Positions 2,901 through 24,800 of a stretch of 64,000 nt of DNA are shown here, in pieces. Under the pieces are notes generated by a model. The model had not been told where the DNA came from. It did not search any database and saw only the letters and a list, made by a program, of their open reading frames with translations. Each line of letters begins with the position of its first letter. The stretch's first letter is position 1. The translations under genes and the position numbers were made by a program. Source of the DNA: Aquila chrysaetos chrysaetos (Eukaryota > Chordata > Aves > Accipitriformes > Accipitridae); contig NC_044004.1 in assembly GCF_900496995.4 (NCBI RefSeq), forward strand, positions 1,426,001 through 1,490,000. Reading direction: 5' to 3'.

Positions 2901-3080
2901 ATGGCCCTCTCTAAGTATACGCCATTGAAATGTGCACATTTCCTAAAAGCAATATGGAACAGCTAAATATACTGCTCACAAATCTGTTTACACTAATAAT
3001 GGCTGGGAGCCTGCCATCCATATGACTGCAAGGAACCATTGATTCAACATAAATTAACTGAAAATTACTTGCGAGAGGGA
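2901..3080. promoter_or_regulatory. Candidate upstream enhancer block B
   Basis: A second AT-rich non-repetitive island. It has TTGAAATG, AACAGCTAAATATA, TGTTTACACTAATAATGG (forkhead-like plus TAAT), CCATATGA (E-box CATATG) and AACATAAATTAACTG. The evidence is motif clustering only. Confidence 0.35.
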
Positions 3081-3505
3081 GAAACTCACGGCATTTTATA
3101 TTTAATTTTTTTTTTTTTCCCCCTTGTCATTCCCCCCCCCCATCCCTGTCGGGGAAGGGGGAAACGAGGAGACATTGGCACCTCTGCTACCGACAGCCTT
3201 GGCTGTGTTTGGCAGCGGCTCTGCTCTTTCCTCGCCGGCCCTTCCCGGCCACAGCGATGGGGACCAGGATAGCCGGCAAGCCGGGATTTTTCATCCCAGC
3301 GCCGGGGACTCGAGCTGCCACCAAAGCTAAACGAATACAATATTTACCCATTTTCCAAGAAACGGCAACGGAGACGGAAGGGTCCAAGTCATTATTTTGG
3401 CGCGGGCAGATTGCTAACTTGTTTAAATTTTTTTCAAAAAGGGGAAAAAAAAGAAGAAAAAAACCCACCACAATTGGCAGCTCCTCGCGTATTAGTCGAA
3501 ATGCT

Positions 3506-3761
3506 GCAGACTTGGCTCCCGCTCACCTCCGCAACATAATGTTAAATGGCATCAAGACAGTATATCAGTCATTTACATATGTTGCTTATAGACGCCAAAC
3601 TTATTAACACAATAAAACTGCTGCTAAGAAGCTTTCCTGCCTATTTTTCTCCTGGAGAATGTCAGTGTTGGAAGCACCTAGCCGCCTCGTATGGAAACAC
3701 CCGGGGTTGCCTTTCATATGGCACCCTGGAAAATAAATACATGAATCAGCCAGGGTCCCCC
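3506..3761 (+). repeat. Left arm of a large inverted duplication upstream of EMX1
   Basis: The 256-base arm is about 93% identical to the reverse complement of 4021-4277, with roughly 18 substitutions and one 1-base indel counted by eye. The centre, 3573-3642, is identical for 70 bases. It contains CATATG E-boxes (ACATATGT and TCATATGG), TTATTAACACAATAAA (homeodomain- and SOX-like) and AAATAAATACATGAATCAG. It does not look like CR1 or another familiar repeat. Confidence 0.93.
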
Positions 3762-4020
3762 TCCGACCACTTTCAAAGCAAAGCCAGAGGACGATTCATT
3801 GATTCAGAGCATTCTGCACCAGAGGAGCCAGCCAGCACCCAGACCACCCAGCAGCACCCCGTGAGCCCCAGCATCCCCCCCGAGGCACGCCGCCTCCCCG
3901 GGCAGGCACCCGGGCAGGATGGGACCCCAAGCTTCACCCCAGGACTGGCTTTAAACCCCCCCCTGCTTTGAGGTGTCCCCAACTCCCTGCCCTCACAGCC
4001 GAGGTCTGAAAACACTGGAA
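3762..4020. other. Spacer between the inverted arms
   Basis: This 259-base unique sequence becomes C-rich towards its right end. It contains CATTGATTCAGAGCATTC and shows no sign of a transposase or terminal repeats. Its length is nearly the same as an arm. Confidence 0.7.
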
Positions 4021-4277
4021 GGGGGACCCTGGCTGATTCATGTATTTATTTTCCCGGGTGCCATATGAAAAGCAACCCCGGGTGTTTCCATATGAGGCGG
4101 CTAGGTGCTTCCAACACTGATGCTCTCCACGCGGGAAAGGAGGCAGGAAAGCTTCTTAGCAGCAGTTTTATTGTGTTAATAAGTTTGGCGTCTATAAGCA
4201 ACATATGTAAGCGGCTGATACACTGTCTTGATGCCATTTAACGGTATGTTGCGGAGGTGAGGGGGAGCCAAGTCTGC
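4021..4277 (-). repeat. Right arm of the large inverted duplication
   Basis: Reverse-complement partner of 3506-3761, separated from it by a 259-base spacer. The third CATATG is intact here but is CGTATG in the left arm. Most differences are transitions and fall outside the 70-base identical core. Weak similarity may run on outward to about 4293 (left partner about 3490). Confidence 0.93.
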
Positions 4278-6519
4278 CGATCTCCCCTAATATAACTCCA
4301 CGCAGTCCCCACGGGGTTTTGGGGGGACTCTCCCAGCACATCTGAGCGGGGATGGCACCTCTCCCCGTGGCTTCTTTGCCCCTGCAACGGTGTAATCTTG
4401 CAGGGGATCTCGCTTTCTTAGCTGCTGGAGCAAAGCCGGCACGAGCCCCGGGGGGATGCTGACGTGGGGGTCACGCTCCGGTGCCATCCGAGGGAGCACC
4501 CAAACCCTCCCCAGGGCTGGACGCGTAATTTCCTGTGTCAAAATTTCCTGAGCTCTCCTAGAAAGACATTTTTGCCAACCCTGCCGTGCACGGAAAAGCA
4601 TTTCTAAGGGACATCCTACAGCCCTGGAGAAAGGTGCATGGTGGGCCATTAGCTGGGAGACCAGTCTTCCCCCCCAAAACCAGTGCGGAGGGCTGGCTGA
4701 ACCCAAACACCGCGGCTGAGCTCTTCTTCGTGCTGTCAGTGGTATAAACCCTCAAAACCATCCCCAGGCGTCACAGTGCTAAAGCACGGAGCTCCTGATC
4801 GCAGCACCCTGAGGAGGTTTAAAGGCTGGGATGGGGGATGAGGGAGAGATCCGCTCCTGGCTGGGGCACAGCGATGCCACGCACCCGCCGCTGCTGCCAC
4901 CCCAGGGACCACGATGACAAACCAGGGACAGCGGTTTGGGTTTGCTCCCAGTGGCTGGGGGGGGGGGGGGGCTGGGTTGCACCCCGGGGACCGCCGGGAC
5001 CCCCACAGCTCTGCCCCCCGATGCCGTACCCGCCGTCACCCCAGCAGGTCCCCAAGGATGCCGCCCGCGGTGCCGTGTGTGCTGCTGGTGCCCGCGGCAT
5101 CGGCGCCGCGCTGACAAGTCGTGTCACAAGCAGGTGATGCAGATGCTGCCCAAAAACCCGTGTGTTTCAGTGCTGCTGCCCTCCGTGGGCCCCGGCGTGG
5201 GTGAACCGGCTCATCGCCTCACTCAACCCGTGGGCAAAACAGGAGACGTGGGGTCCCCAAGGTCAGGCACAAGGTCAGGGGAAAGGTCCCCAAGCACCCG
5301 ACCTCTGCACAGCACTTTCAACTAATGAGTCGCAACCACTTTCCCCAAAACCGTGGTCCTGTGGGACCACCTTGCTGAGCAGAAATGACCGGAGCAATCT
5401 CTGTCCCGGGTGTGGGTGCAGCCTCAGTGCCAGGATGACCATTGCCACCAATGGCCGAGGGTCCCGCAGCTTTCTGAAAGGCTTTATCAAGGCTACAGGC
5501 ACCTGCACGATCATCTCGAGATGTTTCAAGGGACGGAGACGATCCTTTCAGGAGCTGGGGGTTTCAATGTCTACAAGGAGCTGGGTGCAAAATCCTGTTT
5601 GCTTTGCAAGCGCAAAATTCCCATTCATGACACCTGGCTGCAACCACACCAAACGGCCTTCAAGATCTTCCACCTCTGAGTATGTCTGAAGCCCACCAGG
5701 ACCCATCACACCAGAGCCCACATCCGTGCAGGGTTTCTGTACCGACGTACCAGTCAGGCCATGCCGGAGAGGTGAGGGTGGATGCGGCCCCCATGGAAAA
5801 GCCAGAGTGACCATCGCGTAGGTGGGTGAAGACCCAGCAGCATCTTTCCTTGCTGGACTCACCTCTTCCAGCCCATAGCTATGTGACCAGGGCAGCTTCC
5901 CCTTCCCGGGCTCGGTGGTGGGATCCTTTCTCAATATCAGCCTGACTCCATAGACTAAAGCTCTCTCCCGTCCATCCATATCAATGTACACATCTACCAC
6001 CGTCCCCACCATCCCCATGCCATCTCCATCCATCCATCCATCCACTATCAATGGACCAGTTGACAAAACCACCTTAAAAAAGGGAGACTGAGGGAGGTGA
6101 GGTGAATAACCCGCTGAAGCCCACCGGGTTGTGTCAGGTCAGTTTATTCCCATCCAGCATATCCCTGAACCAAATGAAATAATAAAAAAAAAAAAAAAAG
6201 CTGAAGCAGCAGCCCAGGACAGACAGGCTCCAGACCTCCTTAGCCCCCCCAACCCAAAATACAGCCCCATTCCTCCCTTCTTCACTTTGGGACCGCGCTT
6301 GGAGGCTGACGGGAAGAAATCCGGGCAGGGTAAGGAGCTGTGCCCATGGGAAGAGCAGGTGGGAGAGGTTAGGAGGAAACAATCCAGCACTTTGAAGTCT
6401 GGTCAACTTTTAACATCCCGGCAAGCTGCGCCCGTGGCCACGCTCCGAGGCCCGGGGCCTGATTTTCCACATTCTGCCCTTTGATGCTGGAGGCCGATGC
6501 GTTATAGATTAACGAGACC

Positions 6520-9503: not shown

Positions 9504-9873
9504 ATGTTCCAGCCGTCTGCGAAGCGCTGCTTCACCATCGAGTCCCTGGTGGGCAAGGACACCCACCTCAGCCCCGAGGACCCCCCGCGTCCCGCCGCCC
9601 TCGGTTACCCCGGACCCGCCGACGCCGCCGCCGCCGCCGCCGCTTTCCCCCCCGGTTTCCAGGGCGCCGCAGCCGCCGGTCGAGCCCTCTACGGCAGCAC
9701 CGAGCTCGTTTTTCCCGAGGCCGTGGGGCACCCGGGGTTACCCGTCGGGCCCCATCAGTTGGGGGGGTCGGGGCTGCCGCCCCCCCATTCTTTTTTCGGG
9801 CCGCAACACCGCGACCCGCTCAACTTCTATCCCTGGGTGCTGCGGAACCGCTTCTTCGGGCATCGCTTCCAAG
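9504..9873 (+). CDS. EMX1: EMX1 coding exon 1 (N-terminal domain)
   Basis: This exon encodes residues 1-123 plus the first base of codon 124. It carries the Eh1-like motif (residues 10-16), a run of seven alanines, the conserved PHSFFG and QHRDPL stretches, and the [16 protein letters not shown] block that ends exon 1 in EMX genes. The ATG at 9504 was chosen because MFQPSAKR is the conserved EMX start and position -3 is A. The frame stays open upstream to another ATG at 9300, so a longer N terminus cannot be excluded. The exon ends at a GTGAGC donor at 9874. Confidence 0.95.
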
Positions 9874-12800
9874 GTGAGCTGGAGGCATCGCCCACCCGGG
9901 GCTACCGGGACGCGGGTGGGGTGGGGGGGGGACGGGACGTGGGGCCCCTTAAGCGGCGGGGCCGAGGGGGTCCCGGGGGCAAAAAAAAACCAAACCTGTT
10001 GCTGCGGTGCCTGCGCGCCCAGCCGGTGTGCTGCGGGGGTTTGCACCCCCCGGTGCTCAGTGCGTTCGCACACCTGGTGTCAGAGTGCGTTTGCACACCC
10101 CGGGGTCTAGTGCGTTTGCACGCACAGGGTCTAGTGCACTTGCACACCCGGTGCCTAGTGCATTTGCACCCCCCCCCCGGTGCTCAGTGCCTTCGCACAC
10201 CCGGCGCTTAGTGCCTTTGCACACCGGTGCCGAGTGCGTTTGCACACTCCGGTGCTTAGTGCATTTACACACCGGTGTCGGAGTGAGTTTGCACGCCCCG
10301 GCGCTCAGTGCTTTTGCACACTCCGGTGTCGGAGTGCCTTTGCAAACCCCGGTGCGCTCCCGCAGCCCCGGAGCCGGCGTGCGGCGGCCTCGGTGCCGGT
10401 ACCGGTGGGCGGGCGGGGGGGGGGGGGGGGGGGGGGGGGCCGGGCAGCCCCTCGGCAGCTCCGCCTCGGCCGCCGCGGCCGGAGCGGGGGTCCCGGCCGG
10501 GCATCGCGGGGCTCCCGGGGCGGCCCCGCGGCCGGCGGAGCCGGGAGTTTGGGTTTCTCCTTCTCGGGAATGAAGGGGAAGATTGCGGTGGATCTCGGCT
10601 GGCCAGCGAGATTTTGTTTGATCTTACAGCTTGTCTCTCTCTTCCTTCTTTTTCTTTCCTTCTTTCTTTCTTTCCTTCTTTCTTTCTTTCCTTCTTTCTT
10701 TCTTTCTCTTTCTTTTCTTTCCTTCTTTCTTTCCTTCTTTTCTTTCCTTCTTTCTTTCTCTGTCTTTTCCTTCTTTCTTCTTCTCTGACTCTGTCTCCCT
10801 TTCCTTTACCTTTCTTTTCTTTCTCTCCTTTTCTGTCTCTCCCTTTCTTAGTTCCTCTTTCTATTCCATTCTCTGTATCCTTTTCCTTTCCTTTCCTTTC
10901 CTTTCCTTTCCTTTCCTTTCCTTTCCTTTCCTTTCCTTTCCTTTCCTTTCCTTTCCTTTCCTTTCCTCTCCTTTCCTTTCCTCTCCTCTCCTTTCCTCTC
11001 CTCTCCTCTCCTCTCCTTTCCCTTTTCCCCTCTCCTTTTCCCTCTCCTTTTCCCCTCTCCTTTTTCCCTTTCCTCTCCCTCCCCGGCCCCTCGCTGTCCC
11101 CCCCCGGGGGCCGGCCCGAAGCCCCCAGAAGGGTTCCCAACCTGGGTTATCAGCTCTCCGCGTTATCCATCCGTTCCCCACCAACCCCTCGCCTGGCTCC
11201 GGCGGCTCCGCCGGCGATTGCGGCCGCTGCCGGCGGCTCCCGGGGGCACCGGCCCGGCCCCCACCGCCCCCCCCGGTCCCGGTCCCGGTCCCGGTCCCGT
11301 CCCGGGAGCGGCCCCGGCCGGGGCTGCCCGCTCCGGCCCCGCTCCCCCCCGCCGCCCCCCGGCTCCGCTGCCTGCGCCGCCCCCGGCCCTTCCACCTGCC
11401 CGGCCTCCGAGCCGTCTCCCTTCCTGGCCTTTTCTTTCTTTTTCTTTTCTTTCGTTCTTTCGTTTCTTTCTGCCTTTTCTGTCTCTCTCTCTTTCTTTCC
11501 TCCCTCCCTCCCTCCCTCCTTTCTTTTTTCTTTCTTGCTTTCCCACTTTCCTCCTCTCTCACTTTCCTTCTCCCTTTCACTCTTTCTTTTCCTTCTTGTC
11601 TTTCTGTCTTCCTTTTCTTTCTTTCTCGCTTCTCCCTTTCTGTCTCTTTTCCCCCCTGACACTTTCTTAGGCTGTCTCCTCTTGTTTATCTTCTTTTTTC
11701 TCTCTTTCTCTCTGTTTTTTCCCTGCCTCCCCCCTTCTCTCTCTCTTTCTTTCCTCTTCCTCCTGCTCTCCCCATCCATCCCTTCTCCCTCTTTCCTTCT
11801 CTCCTTTCCCTTCCCCCTGTCCAACCCCACCATGGGACCGCAGGCAGCCGGGGAGGGAGCATGGCCACGGGTGCCGCGGTGCTCGGGAGCAGGGAAGGTG
11901 CCCAGGACCCCCCCAAGACCCCCTTGTCCATCCTTCCCGTGTCACAGGACGAGAGGGTCTCCCCAACATCCCCCCCCCAACCCTGGTCCCACAGAGGGGG
12001 AGCTGGGGGGGGGTGCCGGCGCGGGACCCTAACCTGGCTTTCTGTCCGCAGGGAGCGAGGTGTCCCAGGAAAGCCTGCTCCTCCACGGCCCCTTCGCCCG
12101 GAAACCCAAGCGCATCCGCACCGCCTTCTCGCCGTCGCAGCTCCTGCGGCTGGAGCGAGCCTTCGAGAAGAACCACTACGTGGTGGGCGCCGAACGCAAG
12201 CAGCTGGCCAGCAGCCTCAGCCTCTCCGAGACCCAGGTACCCGCTCGCCCGCCCCGCAGCCGTCGGTCCCACCGTCCGTCTGTCCCCTCCGCCGGTGGGA
12301 ACGGCTCGGCATCGGGCGGCCGACGCCGAACCCGCGCGGGGCTCGGGCTGCGCTCTGCCAAATCCCAGCTGGGTTTGTCCAGGAATCCCGCGTGGAAACG
12401 GCGGCCGAACCGTGCGGGTTCGCGTGGGCTCGGGGTTGGTTGGGGTTTTTTTTTGCCACGGTGTTCGGTCGGTACGGTCATCCCCGGCGGGGCTCGAGGC
12501 TGGGAATGCAGGTCTCGCGTCGTGCCACGCTCCGGAGTGGTTTTCCGGTGTTATTTCTTACTTGCTTGGGGTGTTTTTCCCAAGAGCAATATATGGTTTT
12601 AAAAATCCAGTTAAAAAAAGAACAGCAGTGTGAGACCCTTCCCCGCAGAGCTGCAAAAAAGCGCCTCAGTTGTGCGGCTTTGGTTCCGTACACAAACACC
12701 GCCGTGCCCGAAAGTCAGGATGGGTGCAAAGACGGGTGCCTGCCAAAGGGCATTTATTTCAGCTGCAACTTTGTGATTTTTAGAAAAGACATTTCACGGG

Positions 12801-14179: not shown

Positions 14180-17100
14180 ATAATATATCCAGTGATGAAT
14201 CCTACACACACACAAACCTCCTGTGGAAAACCACCCCCCGACCTCGGTGACACGCATTCCCGGTGCGACACAGGTGTGTTTTCACCCACTGCAAACACCC
14301 AGCCCCACGTCCAAACCCACGGGTGGATGTGTTTTATTATTCCCCAGTGGATTTAGCTGTTCCGAGAAGGGGCTGCCGGTTATGGCTGTGCCTGGCCCTA
14401 TTTCCCAGCTGCTTTTCCTCCTGGAAAAGGGAGTTTTGCCCTTTGGGCTGTGCCCGCTCCTGGTCCCGCAGCCAGGGAGCAGAGCAACACCTGGAGCAGC
14501 CCAGGGGGAAGGTGAAAAGGGTACGGATACCTGCCCAGCATCAGGAAATGCCTTGGGATATAGGGTGGGGAAGGGCGGGGGTGTTTAACCCCTTCTCACC
14601 CTTTCTCCTACCAAGGAGCTGTATTAGTCTGGGATAAGACAGGCCCGTGCAACAACAACAACAACAAAAAAGGGAACGGGAGAAAATCCAGCAGCAGCAC
14701 AGAGTCCCGAAGGAAACGCCAAGTGTTCAATAAGTGGGATGAGGCTGGAAGATGCGTAGGGATGGCTCGGGGCGGGGGGGGGGGATGCAGGGTGGCCTGT
14801 GCGAGAGGAGCCCTGCGTGTTGGGATGACGCGGAGGGGGGGGACACGGGACACGACTCGGTGCGTGTGAGCCGGATGGCACAATGATGATGGTCGTCATG
14901 CCGCGGGGGTGCCAGGCAGCGTGGGTGCACCGGGGCTGGCGTGCCGGGGGTGGGATTCGTGTGCCGGGTAGATGGGGAGCGGGGAGCAGGAGGAGGAGGA
15001 GGAGGAAGGGGGGGGGGGTACCACGCTGCGTGCTGCGGTCCTGCCGGGCTGGCCGACACGGGCGGTCACGCTGCCGTGCCCATCGCCGGTGGCGTTGGGT
15101 CGCTTCACCTCCCCGGGGGGGGCGCGCCGGGCTGGGAAAGAACTTCCCTGAGTTAATTTTGCACGACGCAACCTGGCCGTCCGGGCAGAGCTTCTCCATC
15201 CCCGGCAGCGCGTGGTGCTAACCCCGCTCGGGGGGTCTCCAATCTGTCTTCCCAAAGCAAAGGCCTCACCCTGGCTCCTGCCAGGAGATTATGGAGATTA
15301 TGGAGATGCCGTATAGCCCAGTATCCACAGCAGCCCCGGCCGGTGGGTCGGGGCAGCCGGGCATCGAAGCCGCTCTGGCAGCAGCGGTAATAATTAACCG
15401 AGCGAATGCCTGGGAGTTAAGGGAGGAGAAAGATGCACGTCCCAGATACAGCCGGAGAGCAGCCGCACTGCAAAGCCTGGGGCTGGCAGTGGTCTGTCCA
15501 CCCCCTTCCAAGGACCGTCCCCAAACCCAAGCTTTTAAAAGTTTTGGGGTGTTTTCAGAAGAAAAGTCCCAGCTGGGACTACAGGCGTAGGCGAGGGTGC
15601 AGCTTGGGGAGCTCTGCTGCCCTTCGAGGCGGTGGCACATTCGGGTGACAGCACGGCACGAGCGGTGTCACCGTGTCTGGCCCCGAGCGATGACGGGGCT
15701 GGTCCCTCTCGGTCACCATCCAGACCCATCCCGGTGCTCTCAGCCCTCGGCAGGGTTTGGGTCATCGTCCAGGGGAGCTGCACATGAAGCCACCGGCTGT
15801 TAATTGTCCCCAGTTCGGTGACGGCAACGTCACCTTTCGGCCAGAGCTGATTCTCTGGGTGCTGTCGGCATCCCCGGAGCAGAGCGTGATTTCTTGGTGG
15901 ACGCGATGGCCCACAGGGTGTTGTTGCACGGGTGGGAGCGCATCGCGCGTGCAGGCGAAGCAGTGGACGGGAGCTGTGTTACGGAGGCGGGACCGGGATG
16001 CAGGAGCCGTCTGGGGACCGTCCCCATCCCGCAGCAGGAGCACGGGGACGGTGGTGACACCGGAGAGCAGGGCCAGTCCCGGGGAGCGGCTGGGCAGGGA
16101 CCCCGGGAGCATCACACCGGTCGGATGCACAAACACCCGGCATGACAACGGTTAATGCGGCGAGGGTTTGGGAAGGGATAAAACCCCCTGAGCTTGGGGG
16201 TTTAAACCAATTACTCTTGGAGTCAGGATGAGGCATCGTAGGGGGCAGCTTATCCCCCAGTTGCCCACTGTGAGGTTCTCACACTTCTCTCATTGTGGCT
16301 TCTGGCCTGTTGGAGCGAGGGATAACGGTATCGGAGTGGTCAGGGAGCCCATCCAGCCTGGAAACATCCCCGTTCCCGCAGCTGAAACAGTCGGGAAGCG
16401 CAGGGGAGCCTCATCCCGCAGGAGACGGCCGTACCCGGCTGGGTTTCTCCGAGCTGAACAGAGCTGGAGAGGAAAGGCTTTACGGGAGCCGCTTCACACC
16501 CACCCCTGATTTCCACAGAGCCTCACTCAAGCATCTTAATTGCTTTATGCCTTAGTTTCCCCTTCTATAATTTAGGGATAAGGCAACTTCCCTGCTCCCA
16601 GAGGGCTGAGAGCTTTAATTAAAGTTTGCAAAGTGCTTTGCAGTCGTTGAATGAAAGGCGCCAGCTCCGTATTGTTCCAGAAATGCCCCAAAGCTAGGAA
16701 AGCAAATGGTTTGAGTCCAGGGCGGTGGGGGGGGGGGGGGTTTATAATATATACCGGTGCCATAAAGCAGCTGTTTCAATAGACTAAGCATGCCTTGAAG
16801 TCAAGGGCTCGTACTGTGCTGGCTGCGCGGCACTCGGCAAGGGTTTGGCTCACCTGGGGAATGCGGCGAGGTGTGAACGCTGGCCTTCGCCTCGCTGCGA
16901 AAGGCTCCAGAGCAGCGAGCAAGCGTTGCCTGCAATTAATGCTGAAGGAGAAGGGGGGAAAAGGGGCGATGGGGGATGAGGTGCGGGTAAAGGCTTCAGC
17001 CTGGCCGGTAGCGAGCTGGCAGCGGCGGCCGAGCAGCGGCACCTAGTGTCTTGCGGGGCCTGGGAAGCCGGGCAGCATCCTGCACCGCTGCCTGCAGCAT

Positions 17101-18270
17101 CCCACATCCCATCTCCAGCATCCCGCATCCCATCTGCAGCATCCTGCACCGCTGCCTGCAGCATCCCGCATCCCATCTAGAGCATCCCGCACCGCTGCCT
17201 GCAGCATCCCGCATCCCCGGATGCAGCATCCCGCACCGCTGCCTCTGGCATCCCTCATCCCTCGCTGCAGCATCCCGCATCCCCGGCCGCACGGCATCCC
17301 ACACCACCGACCGCCTGGGCGCTTTCAGCATCCCAAACCGACCGCCGTGTCCGTGGTGCCGTGCTCCCGGCGCTGGCATCGAGGGCGTGCGGGGTCGGAG
17401 CAGGATGCTCGGGGCCTCGGGCAGGCGAGGAGGGCGTCATCTCCAAGGATGGAGACCCCGCTGCCCCTCCTGGGACAGCGTTTGACCACCATCACGGTGG
17501 AAAAGGTTTCCTGAAACCTAAATGTGGTAAATTAATTATCTATAATTGTAATTATAATCTATCTAGAATTAGCTACCTGGTTACATACAGGCCAGCCCAA
17601 GCGTAACGATGCCACCCTGGCCCTGGACACAGTTTCACGCTGGAGGAGTGGGGACGGCTCCGCGTGCCGTCCCACGTGGCCGTCGCAGACCTCGCCGCTG
17701 TGCGCAGCCCAGACACCGGGGTGATGGGCACCGGGTTGCGCTGCTGTAAGGGGGGTCCCGTGTGCCCGCTGGCCCCGCGTCTGAGGTGGGATTGAGTGTC
17801 CTTCACCCGTCTTGGGTTTCTCCAAGGCTGGGACGTGCAGCGAAGCGGAGCTGAGAGGCGGCAGCACCCCGCATCCTGCAACGTGCCGTGTTTGTCCCCC
17901 CCCCCCGTCCCACCTTGCCGCGGGCAGAGGGGAAACCGAGGCAGGGCAGGGTGGCCGTGGGAGCGCTCCTGGAGGGACGGGGACTTCTTTTTTTAGCGGT
18001 GTCCGAGGAAAACTGAGCTTGCTGCCCGGTTGCAGCACCGTCCCTCGCCGGGGCCGGCTGTGCCGGGACCCCCGCGAGCGCCCGTCTCTCCCTCTCGCCC
18101 AGGTAAAAGTGTGGTTCCAGAACAGGCGGACGAAATACAAACGTCAGAAGCTGGAGGAGGAAGGACCCGATTCGGATCAGAAGAAGAAAGGTTCCCACCA
18201 CATCAACCGATGGCGCCTCGCCACCAAGCAGTCGAGCGGAGAAGACATCGACGTCACCTCCAACGACTAA
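9504..18270 (+). CDS. EMX1: EMX1 homeobox transcription factor, spliced coding region (three exons)
   Basis: The spliced reading frame joins 9504-9873, 12052-12236 and 18103-18270 and gives 240 residues ending in the EMX signature DIDVTSND. Seen in the protein: an Eh1-like repressor motif FTIESLV at residues 10-16, an Ala-rich stretch around residues 40-60, a hexapeptide-like FYPWV motif at 108-112, and a 60-residue homeodomain at about 142-201. The homeodomain has the invariant W48, F49 and N51 equivalents at W189, F190 and N192, and Gln at position 50 (Q191). EMX1 is a nuclear DNA-binding factor of the dorsal telencephalon and cortical neurons (established for the family). EMX1 is preferred over EMX2 because the N terminus and [10 protein letters not shown] context match EMX1 and SFXN5 lies next door, as in mammals. 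The protein is somewhat shorter than the 257-residue mammalian form because the N-terminal Gly/Ala-rich insert is missing. All splice sites are canonical and the frame is intact. Confidence 0.97.
10036..10355 (+). repeat. Minisatellite in EMX1 intron 1 with hairpin-forming unit
   Basis: Roughly 11-12 imperfect copies of a 24-30 base unit of the form CCGGTGCTTAGTGCGTTTGCACACC. Each unit contains GTGC-N4-GCAC, a self-complementary 4-base stem. Units vary at the CTTA/GTCGG/CTCA position. Confidence 0.9.
10415..10439 (+). repeat. G25 homopolymer in EMX1 intron 1
   Basis: Twenty-five consecutive G, preceded by GGGCGGGC. It could form G-quadruplexes and is prone to sequencing error. Confidence 0.9.
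10630..11095 (+). repeat. Long polypyrimidine tract, (CTTT)n then (CCTTT)n then (CCTCT)n
   Basis: About 465 bases that are almost pure C/T on the sense strand, including about 100 bases of CCTTT repeats around 10881-10975. Long mirror-symmetric stretches can form H-DNA triplexes (established property of such tracts). Confidence 0.95.
11425..11830 (+). repeat. Second long polypyrimidine tract in EMX1 intron 1
   Basis: About 400 bases dominated by C/T with imperfect CTTT, CCCT and CTCT repeats. It ends about 220 bases before the exon 2 acceptor. Confidence 0.93.
12052..12236 (+). CDS. EMX1: EMX1 coding exon 2 (first two thirds of the homeodomain)
   Basis: The exon is preceded by a CCGCAG acceptor and followed by CAG|GTACCC. 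It encodes residues 124-185: the linker [17 protein letters not shown] and homeodomain positions 1-44 (PKRIRTAF through SLSETQ). The exon ends after homeodomain residue 44, the classical homeobox intron position. Its 185 bases restore frame exactly with the single leftover base of exon 1. Confidence 0.97.
14114..14179 (+). repeat. (TTA)n(TTG)n compound microsatellite
   Basis: About eight TTA units pass directly into about fourteen TTG units, in EMX1 intron 2. Confidence 0.95.
16727..16740 (+). repeat. G14 homopolymer
   Basis: Fourteen consecutive G in EMX1 intron 2. Confidence 0.85.
17071..17340 (+). repeat. GCATCC minisatellite in EMX1 intron 2
   Basis: About 12 units alternate between a 22-base form (CAGCATCCYGCACCGCTGCC) and a 20-base form (CAGCATCCCGCATCCCATCT). 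The last units are degenerate. It produces long open frames on both strands that should not be taken as genes. Confidence 0.9.
17525..17585 (+). promoter_or_regulatory. Short TAATTA-rich patch in EMX1 intron 2
   Basis: AAATTAATTATC, TAATTGTAATTATAATC and AGAATTAGC lie in 60 bases, about 520 bases before exon 3. These are homeodomain-type cores; autoregulation is possible but untested. Confidence 0.25.
18103..18270 (+). CDS. EMX1: EMX1 coding exon 3 (recognition helix and C-terminus)
   Basis: After a pyrimidine-rich GCCCAG acceptor the exon reads [21 protein letters not shown], the third (recognition) helix of the homeodomain. The acidic and basic tail follows, with [17 protein letters not shown] and the terminal [13 protein letters not shown] is at 18268-18270. 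The tail differs from the mammalian one only by conservative changes (for example SDQ for SEQ and SSGED for ANGED, from memory of the human protein). Confidence 0.97.
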
Positions 18271-24535: not shown

Positions 24536-24716
24536 AATAGAGAAGAAGAGGAAGAAGAAGAAAAGGAAGAGGAAGAGGAAGAGAAGAGGAGAGGAGAGGA
24601 GAGGAGAGGAGAGGAGAGGAGAGAAGAGAAGAGAAGAGAAGAGAAGAGAAGAGAAGAGAAGAGAAGAGAAGAGAAGAGAAGAGAAGAGAAGAGAAGAGAA
24701 GAGAAGAGAAAAGAGG
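24536..24716 (+). repeat. (GAAGA)n/(GAGAG)n polypurine tract
   Basis: About 180 bases of pure A/G on the + strand, mostly GAGAA repeats with GAGGA units at the left. It abuts a CR1 fragment on its right side. Confidence 0.95.
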
Positions 24717-24800
24717 AGTTCAGTTGGAAGGGACCTACAACGATCATCTAGTCCAACTGCCTGACCACTTAAGGGCTGACCAAAAGTTAAAGAATAGTCT
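24717..24800 (-). mobile_element. CR1 LINE fragment
   Basis: The + strand reads TTGGAAGGGACCTACAACG, ATCATCTAGTCCAACTGCC, then TGACCACTTAAGGGCTGACC. This is the familiar reverse complement of the CR1 3' region, so the element lies on the - strand. It is 5'-truncated and has no coding part. The polypurine tract borders the 3' end side. Confidence 0.75.

Follow-up and report, generated by a model that had tools for sequence, protein, structure and literature searches.

Upstream of the homeobox gene EMX1, the 64,000-nucleotide stretch of golden eagle (Aquila chrysaetos chrysaetos) DNA analysed here, referred to below as the window, carries a real inverted repeat. On balance, we favour the view that it arose through one local, lineage-restricted inverted duplication, in which a single-copy 273-base noncoding segment of the interval between SPR and EMX1 would have been copied by template switching, and that the duplicated segment is a candidate regulatory element.

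In a local alignment, the two arms, which lie in opposite orientation (Table 1), agree at 250 of 274 columns (91.2%), with a score of 424 compared with a maximum of 29 among 500 Markov-shuffled pairs. This confirms the inverted duplication first proposed from inspection of the letters (hereafter the original prediction). The differences comprise 22 substitutions (13 transitions and 9 transversions) and two single-base gaps, i.e. a divergence of ~9% (K2P distance 0.086). An identity of ~93% had been given, in good agreement with the 92.6% (239 of 258 columns) measured from position 3506 inward, i.e. over 3506–4277. The arm length of 256–257 bases that accompanied it is right for that section, but beyond it the full match takes in another 16 bases on the left and 15 on the right, where identity is lower. 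The spacer, put at 259 bases in the original prediction, measures 257, while the 70 identical bases reported for 3573–3642 proved exact.

Table 1. Features of the inverted repeat and of the neighbouring EMX1 gene (window coordinates)
Feature	Coordinates	Strand	Basis or properties
Arm A, probably the original copy	3490–3762	+	GC 45% over 3506–3762; within a wider low-GC stretch, ~3341–3820
70-base run identical between the arms	3573–3642	+	Arm alignment
Difference-rich patch	3643–3665	+	9 of 23 columns differ; arm A stem TTCTCC-T-GGAGAA, without counterpart in arm B
Spacer, 257 bases	3763–4019	.	GC 63%; halves without detectable symmetry
Arm B, inverted copy, 91.2% identical to arm A	4020–4292	-	GC 49% over 4020–4277; low-GC island in GC-richer surroundings
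EMX1 coding exon 1, start	9504–9545	+	Translation, ATG at 9504; no Pfam match
EMX1 exon 2, homeobox part	12108–12185	+	Translation; Pfam homeodomain match
EMX1 exon 3, homeobox end to C terminus	18103–18267	+	Translation, ends DIDVTSND at 18267

The neighbouring gene had been named as EMX1, rightly so given the ATG at 9504 and the homeobox parts starting at 12108 and 18103. The first of these exons is the one that we take to be EMX1 exon 1, and the exon 3 piece scores 21.7 bits against the Pfam homeodomain, just below the curated cut-off of 22.9. Downstream, a minus-strand piece near 57.4 kb has a sideroflexin Pfam match. Upstream of the window, a human SPR query matches three stretches (98 residues at 71%, 64 at 67% and 101 at 52%), the last of which ends at window position -7025, 10.5 kb before arm A. 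Human chromosome 2 has the same order SPR, EMX1, SFXN5, which favours EMX1 over EMX2 as the identity of the gene; all three gene names are presumptive assignments, based in part on these Pfam, translation and SPR-query matches. The arms lie 5.2–6.0 kb before the EMX1 ATG, and the earlier placement of the predicted arms ~5.5 kb upstream agrees with their ends at 5.7 and 5.2 kb.

The EMX1 introns contain repeats of their own. Intron 1 holds a degenerate minisatellite with units of ~25 and 48 bases in 6–13 copies (10039–10355), followed by ~1 kb in which pyrimidine arrays (TTCCT, TTTC and similar) abound, with GC-rich interruptions (10642–11626); the skews for 10001–12000 are -0.66 (AT) and -0.31 (GC), and these arrays could adopt a triplex structure or cause polymerases to stall. 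A purine array of 34 AGAAG copies at 24544–24718 is an inverted 71% match to the pyrimidine tract at 10886–11038. In intron 2, a minisatellite with 22-, 43- and 64-base units (17072–17283) lies ~0.8 kb before exon 3.

The boundaries of the duplication are well defined. The inner boundary is sharp: 35 identical columns, past which (3763 inward) the match has no significant extension (P 0.23). On the outer side, the match runs on from 3505 to ~3490 (P 0.007); a search for a longer, decayed duplication found nothing more from 3489 outward (P 1.0), and no similarity was detected between the outer flanks (P 0.70) or between the inner halves (P 0.53). From the outer to the inner end, the differences number 5 in 16 columns at the outer edge, 7 in 67, none in the 70-base core, 9 in the 23 of the adjacent patch and 3 in the 98 of the inner end. 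Substitutions had been described as clustering at the edges and in one stretch, which is correct for the outer edge and the patch but not for the inner edge, sharp as it is and with only those 3 of 98 columns differing.

Long inverted arms around a unique middle could also represent the single surviving copy of a mobile element with long terminal inverted repeats, be it fold-back or MITE-like. The outermost six bases do agree between the arms, giving outer ends of TATTAG/CTAATA with a possible TA at each end. We nevertheless consider such an element very unlikely. Searching the source genome (1,233,704,830 bases in 144 contigs, with the window at C1:1426001–1490000) with a 1001-base query covering the locus returned nothing but the locus and its two arms, and a query with arm A at E-values up to 10 returned only the two arms. 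This search, which skips very common words and scores only the best candidates, thus produced no further copy in 1.23 Gb, and within these same bounds it bears out the earlier statement that the arms resemble no common repeat. Within the window, neither arm has another copy: the short matches are 11–19 bases for arm A and up to 23 for arm B, all with E of at least 0.59. Outside the patch, the arms differ most at their outer ends, on which a transposase would depend; the immediate flanks show by eye no clear target-site duplication beyond the possible TA, and the one open frame tested at the locus has no Pfam match. A transposon was set aside because no further copies or clear target duplication were found and the outer ends match poorly. 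As expected, exact 57-base and 40-base patterns from the core gave no matches in viral and prokaryotic contigs.

To gauge local rarity, 264 kb of contiguous sequence around the locus were scanned for inverted matches at most 3 kb apart with E up to 0.001. With simple sequence masked, four were found, namely the EMX1 pair and three self-overlapping palindromes (30, 37 and 119 columns at 93, 86 and 76%), making the EMX1 pair the sole one with separated arms in this small control. Leaving simple sequence unmasked added four AT-rich palindromes at 19.4–19.8 kb of the window, the longest of 270 columns at 69%, and a listing without the E-value limit adds low-complexity pairs of 40–47 bases within 3 kb, such as 9403–9449/10407–10453 at 70%. 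The 119-column, 76% match is an imperfect self-palindrome at window coordinates 104223–104336 (C1:1530223–1530336), i.e. beyond the window.

Chimeric reads can give rise to spurious inverted copies at short distance, and the arms do lie close together. An assembly fold-back is nonetheless the least probable of the explanations considered here: 24 of 274 columns differ, many of them clustered, which a fold-back join should not produce, and contiguity is high, with 144 contigs in the assembly and C1 alone at 85 Mb. The original prediction had itself taken the divergence to speak against an artefact, and ~9% does weigh against a fold-back, which should leave the arms near-identical.

More weight is due to the possibility that the arms are an old duplicated enhancer pair, kept alike by purifying selection and/or by gene conversion or arm-to-arm template switching. 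If sites are taken as independent, the pattern of differences favours this reading, with P values over the full arm of 0.015 for the identical run, 0.02 for the uneven spread and 0.00005 for close pairs; the same three tests over 3506–4277 give 0.038, 0.004 and 0.0018. The low GC content and the enrichment of CATATG described below point the same way, and template switching has been found to homogenise the arms of inverted repeats in yeast, according to the accessible part of the source (PMC8604942). Yet neighbouring differences may come from single events. When differences within 1, 2, 3 or 5 columns of each other are merged, 17, 13, 11 or 10 events remain, and the run becomes ordinary (P 0.07, 0.19, 0.29 and 0.35, respectively). 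The 70-base core is therefore unremarkable if each cluster of differences is counted as one mutational event, and by itself it is not evidence of selection. The directional GC difference between the arms likewise argues for unequal evolution, not homogenisation. We accordingly see no support for the original prediction that the element has been ‘held constant by selection or gene conversion’, considering the merged-run P values of 0.07–0.35, the 16 versus 3 directional sites set out below and the ~9% divergence, which would be that of an unconstrained duplication of moderate age; the explanation itself seems unlikely, though less so than a mobile element.

The most likely origin is instead an inverted duplication of ordinary replicative kind. 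The patch next to the core looks like a short template-switch event: arm A contains a perfect 6-base stem that is not present in arm B, and a comparable stem occurs in 1.7% of 3000 random 28-base stretches from the window. The change may have taken place on the arm A side. Template switching is known to leave clustered multi-base differences with a perfect stem, and it is the resemblance of the patch, with its stem in arm A only, to this footprint that suggests the mechanism (PMC8794818, PMC8604942; both as far as the accessible parts go). A replication fork or repair synthesis would have switched to the opposite strand, such that arm A was copied backwards and the copy placed ~260 bases away. 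The locus thus shares with the described template-switch inverted duplications a reverse-complement copy near its source, clustered differences and a perfect stem. The described cases, in the parts of the two papers available, concern RNA-gene stems and short inverted repeats in yeast coding DNA (PMC8794818, PMC8604942); the EMX1 locus, in contrast, has a 273-base arm in noncoding vertebrate DNA and an event that is inferred rather than reconstructed. A second parallel is offered by the HoxD clusters of caecilian and coelacanth, where inverted repeats, many of them outside known transposons, likewise lie among developmental homeobox genes. There, as the accessible part of that paper reports, repeats are many and go along with Hox gene loss, and with cluster expansion in the caecilian (PMC3091776), unlike the one isolated pair seen here, beside an EMX1 gene that still has its coding parts in the window. 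No published description of the present inverted repeat was found among the literature matches listed, a search of titles and the starts of abstracts that leaves most subscription papers uncovered.

As for the direction of copying, arm A is probably the original and arm B a copy drifting toward the local GC content, since arm A is embedded in a wider low-GC stretch and arm B forms a low-GC island that has shifted toward its surroundings. The 60-base bins across 3341–3820, around arm A, have GC contents of 32–53%, compared with 62% and 67% for the bins flanking arm B. At 19 sites, one arm has A or T and the other G or C; A/T is in arm A at 16 and in arm B at 3 (two-sided P 0.004 under site independence, the true P being larger because of dependence within clusters). 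Arm A need not carry the ancestral state at every site: the three informative sites just mentioned reverse the trend, the stem patch may have changed on its side, and at 4089 arm B keeps CATATG where arm A reads CGTATG. At avian neutral rates of 2–3 substitutions per site and lineage per billion years, the duplication would be roughly 14–22 million years old if unconstrained, and older if constrained or converted. We infer its lineage restriction from the divergence alone, and its polarity and age from the two arms and their surroundings rather than from an outgroup comparison.

Two arms of this length would also pair in a transcript, raising the prospect that the locus encodes a hairpin RNA, be it a structured RNA, a small-RNA precursor or an RNA-editing substrate. 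The predicted stem is very long (-543 kcal/mol versus a mean of -248 for 20 shuffles), as it would be for any inverted repeat. Against such a role, Rfam returned no match in the whole window at gathering scores, and arm A on its own folds only slightly better than shuffled sequence (z -1.17, with 25 of 200 at least as good). Likewise, of 22 substituted pairs, only 8 are G–U in a plus-strand transcript and 5 in a minus-strand one; the other 14 and 17, respectively, break pairing. There is no sign that selection preserved RNA pairing between the arms, and we deem an RNA function highly improbable. The original prediction had further noted that the spacing would allow a cruciform, which holds in principle; a 257-base loop, however, makes spontaneous extrusion unlikely.

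Under the favoured duplication by template switching, it is plausible, judging by low GC, CATATG enrichment and position, that the duplicated segment is a cis-regulatory element of EMX1. CATATG is bound by bHLH proteins. The E-boxes of this type that had been noticed earlier are indeed present, two in arm A (P 0.001) and three in arm B (P 0.00002) against a background of 0.05 per arm; since the motif had been named beforehand, the test was not blind and these P values are optimistic. Another motif, TGATTCA, occurs on either strand at 3040, 3742, 3800 and 4034, i.e. four times in ~1 kb out of nine in the window, two of the four being the same site in both arms. Arm A would thus be part of a candidate EMX1 element bound by bHLH and other factors, and arm B, after its shift toward local GC, a partly redundant second copy adding binding sites, with no hairpin or cruciform required.

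In mouse, the Emx1 promoter contacts distal elements including VISTA hs1025, which is active in the forebrain of embryos, and risk variants in the human counterparts of Emx1 forebrain enhancers have been assigned to Sfxn5 by proximity (PMC11919700). The accessible part of that study describes no SPR-side element among these mammalian enhancers, setting them apart from the locus studied here (PMC11919700), and nothing on an upstream Emx1 element was found in the accessible part of PMC9081933.

A bolder and rather doubtful extension is that the template switch created a second, opposite-facing pallial enhancer of EMX1 that was kept in one lineage, its arms now diverging, one conserved and the other drifting to new sites. 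Such a lineage-specific enhancer doubling, if true, would amount to a natural experiment in enhancer gain at a pallium-patterning gene. If arm A is not an enhancer, what remains is an inverted duplication of ordinary kind and moderate age, and one that warns against taking stretches shared identically by two copies as a sign of selection. If it truly is an EMX1 enhancer, the locus would provide a clean case of a regulatory element doubled by one mutation next to a gene that patterns the forebrain, with two arms that can be compared directly.
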